From contig JALHON010000015.1 in NCBI GenBank assembly GCA_022842985.1, positions 1 to 34,035 on the forward strand: a stretch of 34,035 nucleotides of DNA, given 5' to 3'. The notes beneath the pieces were generated by a model, which saw nothing but the letters and a program-made list of their open reading frames with translations, ran no database searches and was not told the DNA's origin. How positions within the stretch are numbered: the first letter of the stretch is position 1; the number at the start of each line of letters is the position of its first letter. The translations under genes and the position numbers were made by a program. Positions 27,276-29,627 of the stretch are shown here, piece by piece. This DNA comes from Acidobacteriota bacterium. GTDB lineage: Bacteria; Acidobacteriota; Vicinamibacteria; Vicinamibacterales; UBA2999.

Positions 27276-28682
27276 ATGGGTGGAACCACACTTCGACTTG
27301 GCTGCGCGGCGCTCGCCGCGGCCGGCCTGCTCACTGCCTCAGGGACAGCCTTCGCGCAGGCGCCGAAGTCGCCGTCCCGAACGGTGACCTTCTCCAAGGA
27401 CGTCGCGCCGATCTTCCAGGCCAAGTGCCAGTCGTGCCACGAGCCCGGGTCCATCGCCCCGATGTCGCTCGTCACGTTCCGCGAGGCGCGGCCGTGGGCG
27501 AAGTCGATCAAGAACCGCGTGGAAGCCAGGCAGATGCCGCCCTGGCACATCGACCGCAGCGTCGGCGTGCGGGAGTTCAAGAACGACAGCTCGCTCTCGG
27601 ACGACGAGATCGCCACCATCTCCGCCTGGGTCGATCAGGGCGCGCCGGAAGGCAACCCCGCCGACTTCAAAGCCAAGCCGGTCACCCAGGGCATGTACTG
27701 GCAGGCGGAGCGCGACGGCTACGGACCGCCCGATCTGGTCATCACCGCGCCGATGCAGACGATGCCGGCCGTGAACCAGGACGTGTGGTGGCGCCCCTCG
27801 CAGGAGATCCCGATCACCGAGCCCCGCTGGGTGCGCATGGTCGAGATTCGTCCGGCCAACCTGCAGGGCCGCAAGATCCTGCATCACTCGATCGCCTATC
27901 ACGTGCTCAGCCCCGACAACGTCGCCGCGGTGAACACCGGCATCGCCGTGGGCGGCCGGTCGGTCAACGCGTCGAACACGGCCGACCTCGTCAACCGCCG
28001 TCCGCAGCTGATGGAATGGGCCATCGGCAAGGGCTACGACCGCTTCATGGACGGCACCGGCAAGCTCATCATGCCGGGCGAGAAGATCTCGTGGGACCAG
28101 CACATCCACGCCGCCGGTGAAGAGATCACGAGCGCCTCGCAGATCGGCCTGTGGTTCTACCCGAAGGGTCAGGAGCCCACCAAGCGCAGCTACCTCGTGG
28201 GCTTCACGGGTCTCAAGAACGGCACCGCCGGACTCGACATTCCGCCCAACTCCGTCGCCTACACCGAGGGCTACAACCTGCTGAAGGAGAACACCCTCAT
28301 CACCAACTTCCAGCCGCACTTCCATCTGCGCGGCAAGGCGATGATGGTCGAAGCCATCCTGCCCGACGGCACCACGGAAGTGGTCAGCTACGTGAAGGAC
28401 TTCAACTTCAACTGGATGACCAACTACATCTACAAGGACGAGGCGGCGCCCGTGTATCCCAAGGGCACGATCATCAAGGTGGCCGCGTACTACGACAACA
28501 CGAAGGCCAACAAGAGCAACCCGGATCCGGACCAGTGGGTGGGCTGGGGCGACCGCACGGTGGACGAGATGGCGCACGCCTGGATGAACGTCGTGTATCT
28601 CTCGGACGACGAATACAAGGCGCTGGTCGAGAAGCGCAAGGCCCAGAAGGCCTCGGCCACTGACGCGCGCGAGCGCCGTTAA
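27276..28682 (+). CDS. Secreted c-heme protein with PHM-like (copper type II monooxygenase-like) region
   Basis: Signal peptide; heme c motif CQSCH (27426-27440); PHM-like ligand candidates ILHHSIAYHV, QPHFHLRGKAMMVEAILPDGT, TVDEMAHAWMNVVYL. Confidence 0.75.
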   Translation: MGGTTLRLGCAALAAAGLLTASGTAFAQAPKSPSRTVTFSKDVAPIFQAKCQSCHEPGSIAPMSLVTFREARPWAKSIKNRVEARQMPPWHIDRSVGVREFKNDSSLSDDEIATISAWVDQGAPEGNPADFKAKPVTQGMYWQAERDGYGPPDLVITAPMQTMPAVNQDVWWRPSQEIPITEPRWVRMVEIRPANLQGRKILHHSIAYHVLSPDNVAAVNTGIAVGGRSVNASNTADLVNRRPQLMEWAIGKGYDRFMDGTGKLIMPGEKISWDQHIHAAGEEITSASQIGLWFYPKGQEPTKRSYLVGFTGLKNGTAGLDIPPNSVAYTEGYNLLKENTLITNFQPHFHLRGKAMMVEAILPDGTTEVVSYVKDFNFNWMTNYIYKDEAAPVYPKGTIIKVAAYYDNTKANKSNPDPDQWVGWGDRTVDEMAHAWMNVVYLSDDEYKALVEKRKAQKASATDARERR

Positions 28683-28694
28683 GGAGACACGGAC

Positions 28695-29627
28695 ATGCAG
28701 TCATCCCGCATCGCCGGTTTCTTCCTCGGCCTCGGCCTCGCCATGATTGGCGCCGCCGTGGCTCACGCGCAGTCATCGCAGATCCTGCCCAGCTATCCGA
28801 AGCTGGCCTTCGGCGGCACGATCTCGCCGGCCTACGACGGCTGGTACGACAACCCGGACGGTACCCGCACCTTCCTGATGGGCTACTACAGCCGCAACTG
28901 GGAAGACCCGATCGAAGTGCCGATCGGGCCGAACAACCACTTCGAGCCGGGACCGCCCGATCGCGGGCAGCCCACGCACTTCATGCCGAACCGCAACTTC
29001 GGCATGTTCTCGGTCACCGTGCCCAAGGGCAACAAAGAGAAGCTGTGGTGGGTGCTCACGGTGAACGGCGTGACGCAGCGCGTGCCGATGTCCGACACGC
29101 CCGACTACAACATCACGCCGCAGCACTCGTCGGAAGAAGGTCCCGACGGCCGGTACAACTACCCCGCCGTGCTGCGCTTCTCCGAGAACGGGCCGAAGTT
29201 CCAGATGGCGCTGGCCACGCAGGAGAACGCCATCCAGCGCGTGGCGATCGCGGGCGTGCCGATGACGATCGACTTCTGGGTGGACGACGACGCGCTGCAC
29301 TCGAGCGGGTCGAACGCGCCGACGAGCGGCCACGAGCCGATGGTCGAGATGGTGATCAACAAGTACCGCGGTCCCGGCAAGGTCACCGTGAGCAGGGACC
29401 ACCACAAGCTCACGGTGCTCAAGGGCGGCAAGCCCGGCGAGCCGTTCTCGGCGAAGGGGTCGACCACGGTGACCTTCAGCGAGCCCGGTGAGTACCAGAT
29501 CCACGTCACGGCCAACGACCTCTCGGGTCCTGGCGGTGGCGCGTCGGGCTGCTGCTGGACGACCGGCCTCTTCAAGGTGTCGGTGAAGCCGGCCGGCGGC
29601 GCGCCGCCCACCGGCGGGCGCCAGTAA
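28695..29627 (+). CDS. Secreted protein of unknown function, co-transcribed with the c-heme/PHM-like protein
   Basis: Signal peptide MQSSRIAGFFLGLGLAMIGAAVAHAQ; 'FLMGYYSRNWEDPIEVPIGPNNHFEPGPPDRGQPTHFMPNRNFGMFSVTVP'. The SD (taaggag) overlaps the upstream stop; 12-bp gap. Confidence 0.85.
   Translation: MQSSRIAGFFLGLGLAMIGAAVAHAQSSQILPSYPKLAFGGTISPAYDGWYDNPDGTRTFLMGYYSRNWEDPIEVPIGPNNHFEPGPPDRGQPTHFMPNRNFGMFSVTVPKGNKEKLWWVLTVNGVTQRVPMSDTPDYNITPQHSSEEGPDGRYNYPAVLRFSENGPKFQMALATQENAIQRVAIAGVPMTIDFWVDDDALHSSGSNAPTSGHEPMVEMVINKYRGPGKVTVSRDHHKLTVLKGGKPGEPFSAKGSTTVTFSEPGEYQIHVTANDLSGPGGGASGCCWTTGLFKVSVKPAGGAPPTGGRQ

Follow-up and report, generated by a model that had tools for sequence, protein, structure and literature searches.

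The window analysed here, a 34,035-nucleotide stretch of contig JALHON010000015.1 (positions 1 to 34,035, forward strand) from a soil Acidobacteriota bacterium of the Vicinamibacterales, lies in a genome assembly (GCA_022842985.1) of 4.97 Mb and 469 contigs. At positions 27276-28682 it carries a gene whose product joins a c-type cytochrome domain to a domain of the type found in the copper enzymes peptidylglycine alpha-hydroxylating monooxygenase (PHM) and dopamine beta-monooxygenase (DBM, or dopamine beta-hydroxylase, DBH). An initial annotation made from the sequence alone had proposed a secreted heme-copper protein in this open reading frame. The frame is real, encoding 468 amino acids between an ATG at 27276, preceded by a GAGGGAG stretch, and a TAA stop at 28682, and a second genome of this genus encodes a protein 94% identical to it. 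The features of the gene are as follows.

27276..28682, + strand: cytochrome c–PHM/DBM-type copper monooxygenase fusion gene, 468 amino acids (open reading frame and translation; family profile against rat PHM, E=1.7e-13; AlphaFold2 and Foldseek)
27276..27356, + strand: predicted Sec-type signal peptide, MGGTTLRLGCAALAAAGLLTASGTAFA, residues 1-27 (by-eye sequence prediction; residues 1-30 have low confidence in AlphaFold2)
27375..27665, + strand: c-type cytochrome domain, residues ~34-130 (Pfam PF13442, E=1.8e-5, just under cut-off; helical in AlphaFold2)
27426..27440, + strand: CQSCH heme attachment motif, C51, C54 and H55 (conserved in 127-128 of 128 sequences)
27534..27542, + strand: MPP motif, with M87 (27534-27536) the probable distal heme ligand (128/128; paired with MPGF of cytochrome c6 in the alignment)
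27723..28601, + strand: PHM/DBM-type dicopper domain, residues ~150-442 (mostly beta in AlphaFold2; DBH and PHM Foldseek matches; profile alignment)
27882..27887, + strand: H203-H204, counterparts of the PHM CuH ligands H107-H108 (126/128; HH aligned to HH)
28101..28103, + strand: H276, counterpart of the PHM CuH ligand H172 (126/128; aligned to LQVHY)
28317..28325, + strand: H348-x-H350, counterparts of the PHM CuM ligands H242 and H244 (125/128; aligned to VHTH)
28569..28571, + strand: M432, counterpart of the PHM CuM ligand M314 (123 of the 124 sequences with a residue at this position; DEM aligned to DEM)

The PHM ligand numbers used here (H107, H108, H172, H242, H244 and M314) are those of established PHM structures. 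The N-terminal segment MGGTTLRLGCAALAAAGLLTASGTAFA-QAP, which is followed by VTFSKDVAPIFQAKCQSCH, reads as a predicted Sec signal peptide.

Membership of the PHM/DBM superfamily emerges most clearly from searches with family profiles. A profile of 23 homologues (A4), built without the sequences collected later, matched human DBH when compared with all PDB sequences (E=1.1e-6), and the alignment brought together five ligands, namely the HH pair, the third histidine and the H-x-H pair. A second profile of 26 homologues (A5), which added others from across the phylum, matched rat PHM with E=1.7e-13 and human DBH with E=7.8e-12. The A5-PHM alignment pairs all six copper ligands (HH, H, HxH and M) one to one, within the segments vHHvlvf/vHHmLlF, lqvHy/LQVHY, tPHmHlrGk/RVHTHHLGK and dEM/DEM. 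The HH, HxH and Met ligands that the initial annotation had placed in PHM order are thus the correct ones, at exactly the coordinates it gave (27882-27887, 28317-28325 and 28569-28571), although its list was incomplete, lacking the invariant third CuH-type histidine H276 and the equally invariant M87.

The predicted fold agrees with this assignment. An AlphaFold2 model of the window protein (mean predicted local distance difference test score, pLDDT, 83; predicted template modelling score, pTM, 0.81) contains PHM/DBH-like beta domains, and a Foldseek comparison of this model with the PDB places DBH or PHM at each of the first 31 ranks (E values from 1.3e-12 to 3e-8, probability 1.00), with DBH the best. 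Moreover, an alignment of 23 sequences with 27-68% identity to the query has 21 invariant columns, 10 of which are heme and copper residues, so the motif residues are not coincidental. Chance motif matches are likewise excluded by the homology that the profiles demonstrate. We regard it as virtually certain that the protein belongs to the PHM/DBM superfamily and has its fold. The fusion of a c-type heme motif with a PHM-like copper region that the initial annotation put forward is thereby supported.

Searches with single sequences gave a partial picture. The window protein alone retrieves only cytochrome c models from Pfam and NCBIfam, just under their curated cut-offs; matches to PF13442 or PF00034 are seen for 22 of the 23 homologues. 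This pattern suggested a cytochrome c protein of the ordinary kind that has an unrelated domain at its C-terminus, an interpretation ruled out by the profile and fold searches. A PDB search with the single sequence of a closer relative (L046) also gave no match. Other members are recognized directly: one relative (L151) exceeds the cut-offs of both PF01082 and PF03712 and matches a cytochrome c model, many Acidobacteriota homologues match PF03712 in a Pfam scan, and one homologue from the same genome (contig C386) weakly matches Pfam Cu2_monoox_C. A similarity to hydrazine synthase was confined to a short CxxCH segment and was dismissed.

Conservation was assessed in the query together with 127 full-length homologues left after deduplication, a set gathered in part through a heme-domain pattern. 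Across these 128 sequences the heme residues are 99-100% conserved and the copper ligands, including the HH, HxH and Met residues whose conservation the initial annotation had proposed as a test, are 96-98% conserved, with the CuH ligands at 98%; the N-terminal c-type cytochrome domain is therefore co-conserved with all six copper ligands. In an alignment of paralogues ten metal-type residues are invariant (C51, C54, H55, M87, H203, H204, H276, H348, H350 and M432). Ligand losses are rare and mostly affect whole blocks. Two degenerate paralogues (L080:5724-6869 and L083:5841-6980), each located just upstream of an intact copy, keep the heme domain and have lost all copper ligands, and one other (L070:2451-3701) has lost the CuM ligands alone.

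Because a heme pattern had been used to collect part of this set, the test was repeated with the copper domain alone. A PF03712 search of 297 Acidobacteriota genomes found matches in 45, and all 27 newly fetched copper-domain proteins match the profile of the full-length family and have a C..CH motif ~140 residues ahead of their HH pair. The heme motif thus occurs in the same place in 27 of 27 proteins, indicating that the fusion is the normal architecture of the family. In L042, the one apparent exception in an earlier set, the heme motif lies upstream in a different reading frame, and the gene looks like an otherwise normal member with a frameshift between its heme and copper parts.

The family is large, often with at least ten copies per genome. 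Homologues are present in 91 of 149 related genomes, and the same genome as the window holds about eight more. The closest named relative is the Acidobacteria metagenome-assembled genome (MAG) RBC068, source of the 94% identical protein, and the others are mainly from Acidobacteriota, including Vicinamibacteria and Terriglobia/Bryobacterales. Homologues with 46-73% identity also come from MAG contigs whose titles name other phyla (L139, Bifidobacterium breve; L063, Reyranella; L078 and L130, Acidimicrobiia; L129 and L136, Cyanobacteria); mislabelling or contamination of the bins is a likelier cause than genuine transfer. A second branch of this heme-copper family carries C-terminal tetratricopeptide repeats, recognized by Pfam in L009 and by eye in L043, L047, L049, L051, L060, L109, L129 and L130.

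Comparison with PHM (PDB 1phm and 1opm) reveals a homologous copper domain with the same six ligands and the HH, HxH and DEM motifs, whereas the N-terminal cytochrome c domain of the window protein has no equivalent in PHM. The copper region has no cysteine in 122 of the 128 homologues, and so lacks the core disulfides of the PHM type; C51 and C54 are the only cysteines of the mature window protein. In addition, the PHM peptide-carboxylate ligands R240, N316 and Y318 correspond to Q346, H434 and W436, which are themselves shared by 77-88% of the 128 sequences and are maintained in the close subfamily. Since both the disulfides and the peptide-binding residues are absent, the protein is best described as a member of the PHM/DBM superfamily and not as a peptidylglycine hydroxylase. 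Judging from these residues it probably does not act as a peptide amidase, and its substrate is probably not a glycine-extended peptide. Peptide amidation was also rejected on genomic grounds, as neighbours resembling the lyase of the animal amidating enzyme (see below) lie in few loci, none of them next to the window gene. Two further histidines with no counterpart in PHM, H434 (codon 28575-28577, two residues after M432; 99/128) and H278 (28107-28109, two after H276; 75/128), could tune the copper sites.

Human DBH (PDB 4zel), the best structural match, resembles the window protein in that its copper core is preceded by an additional domain. This domain is a DOMON domain in DBH and a c-type cytochrome in the window protein; DBH also has disulfides, whereas the window protein is bacterial, predicted to be periplasmic and free of them. 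The Pfam families that detect the relatives and not the window protein itself, PF01082 and PF03712, are named as copper type II ascorbate-dependent monooxygenases, but dependence on ascorbate is unsupported for the family described here. A functional analogue is the pairing of lytic polysaccharide monooxygenases with the cytochrome domain of cellobiose dehydrogenase, where a heme protein likewise feeds a copper monooxygenase, although the two are separate chains, the heme is of the b type and the copper fold is unrelated.

Our preferred reading, to which we assign a probability of roughly 0.62, is that the protein is a periplasmic, self-wired two-copper monooxygenase of the PHM/DBM superfamily in which the heme passes electrons to copper. 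The protein would be exported, and the cytochrome c maturation system would attach heme at CQSCH; the same genome has two matches to cytochrome c assembly proteins. The heme c, ligated by His55 and Met87, would take single electrons from periplasmic donors, either other cytochromes c or a quinoprotein dehydrogenase, and would pass them to CuH (H203, H204 and H276) in place of ascorbate. CuM (H348, H350 and M432) would then activate O2 and hydroxylate a C-H bond of the substrate. The parts of this proposal differ in strength: the motif and its conservation make heme binding very likely, monooxygenase chemistry is a likely prediction, and a role for the heme as the physiological reductant of copper is reasonably probable.

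Several observations weigh against this reading. The window protein by itself yields no copper-domain match and no solved PHM in Pfam and PDB scans. As rigid bodies, the Foldseek superpositions are loose (root-mean-square deviation 6-9 Å, TMq 0.35-0.46) and, over the whole chain, do not fix the relative position of the domains or whether the copper cleft is open or closed. The loss of the PHM peptide-binding residues and disulfides could mean that the activity has changed. Finally, the reading rests on sequence comparison and predicted structure, from which we infer the path of the electrons.

It is conceivable that the same copper monooxygenase carries a heme that does not feed its copper, the heme instead taking electrons from a dehydrogenase or serving in docking, with a small molecule or a different protein as the reductant of copper. 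PHM and DBM function without heme, and the degenerate paralogues L080 and L083, which keep the heme after losing every copper ligand, imply that the heme domain can be retained for reasons of its own. However, no copper domain without heme was found in the Acidobacteriota sample (27 of 27 have it), and the strict spacing and co-conservation of the two parts also speak against this alternative, which we consider unlikely.

Next in order is an enzyme with the same copper sites that is not a monooxygenase, either an oxidase or peroxygenase consuming O2 or H2O2, or an enzyme handling nitric oxide (NO) or nitrite. The replacement of the PHM substrate-binding residues would suit such an activity, and heme c together with copper is common in respiratory periplasmic enzymes. 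Nevertheless, the protein retains the full set of six ligands for the two PHM coppers, including the unusual CuM methionine, and we know of no oxidase with the PHM/DBM fold, which makes this reading improbable. A non-catalytic copper-binding or electron-transfer protein, for example in copper handling or storage, would accommodate the large paralogous families and the secreted immunoglobulin (Ig)-like partner described below, but is highly improbable given that two distinct three-ligand sites are kept exactly and are lost mostly as blocks, a pattern that catalysis fits better.

The gene of the proposed heme-copper monooxygenase is followed directly by a second gene, P0002, which accompanies it in most loci.

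28680..28694, + strand: gene junction, with AAGGAG overlapping the TAA stop ahead of the ATG at 28695 (sequence)
28695..29627, + strand: P0002, secreted all-beta Ig-like protein of 310 amino acids with a near-invariant CC pair (C286-C287) and a GQPTHF motif (next to the enzyme gene in 75/80 loci; AlphaFold2 pLDDT 77)

Because AAGGAG lies across the stop codon and an ATG comes just after it, the two genes probably form one co-transcribed operon. Of the 80 loci L061-L140, 75 have a P0002 homologue adjoining the enzyme gene; it most often lies immediately downstream, and in some cases immediately upstream. With stricter gene calling this family was still by far the commonest neighbour, every other neighbour family being limited to at most 14 loci. 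In the genome of the window, a P0002 homologue accompanies six enzyme copies, which are that of the window and five paralogues (L002-L007).

Secretion of P0002 is predicted from a signal peptide recognized by eye. The protein has no Pfam family above cut-off, and comparison of its AlphaFold2 model with the PDB gave no confident relative, only weak Ig-like structural matches, so a role as an enzyme was dismissed. Its conserved GQPTHF motif (28965-28982) and vicinal CC followed by W (29550-29555) are possibly a metal or disulfide site. P0002 is probably a partner of the enzyme, acting as a subunit or as a binder of substrate or scaffold.

Among the less frequent neighbours, a pyrroloquinoline quinone (PQQ) dehydrogenase is encoded in 14 loci at varying distance from the enzyme. 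In three of the loci examined it directly follows the enzyme-partner pair on the same strand (L097:3988-6213, L099:10393-12591 and L103:10397-12649). This offers only a hint that the dehydrogenase might be an electron source, or might oxidize the hydroxylated product or carry out the next catabolic step. Genes for NHL beta-propellers also occur near the enzyme (L099:6748-7812, L111:3941-5281 and L097:411-1736), and the PHG, PTDV...DGH..N.RI and PHAL motifs of the L099 gene call to mind peptidyl-hydroxyglycine lyase (PAL), which makes up the second part of animal peptidylglycine alpha-amidating monooxygenase (PAM).

PHM and DBM are textbook animal enzymes, used to make peptide hormones and noradrenaline. 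The kind of copper monooxygenase encoded here is already known, and Pfam names some of the relatives. The initial annotation had called the protein undescribed, which holds for the fusion itself, since no paper on a heme-fused bacterial PHM/DBM form was found in the open-access literature, and does not hold for the copper domain, because Pfam copper type II monooxygenase models already match many relatives. In the copper-protein table of a metalloproteome review, PHM and DBM apparently stand in the eukaryotic column only (PMC7435645).

The findings suggest that bacteria power PHM/DBM chemistry with a built-in heme rather than with vitamin C. We lean slightly towards a broader view, in which a very large bacterial class of PHM/DBM type uses heme c in place of ascorbate, is paired with an Ig-like partner in a two-gene unit, and is present in Acidobacteriota in at least ten copies per genome that act on different substrates. 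If the proposal is true, a bacterial branch with heme c built into the enzyme would provide a single-chain system in which electron entry at CuH could be followed optically through the heme, and the long-debated transfer of electrons from CuH to CuM would become directly testable. The heme-fused family suggests, too, that abundant soil bacteria have oxidative abilities yet to be explored.
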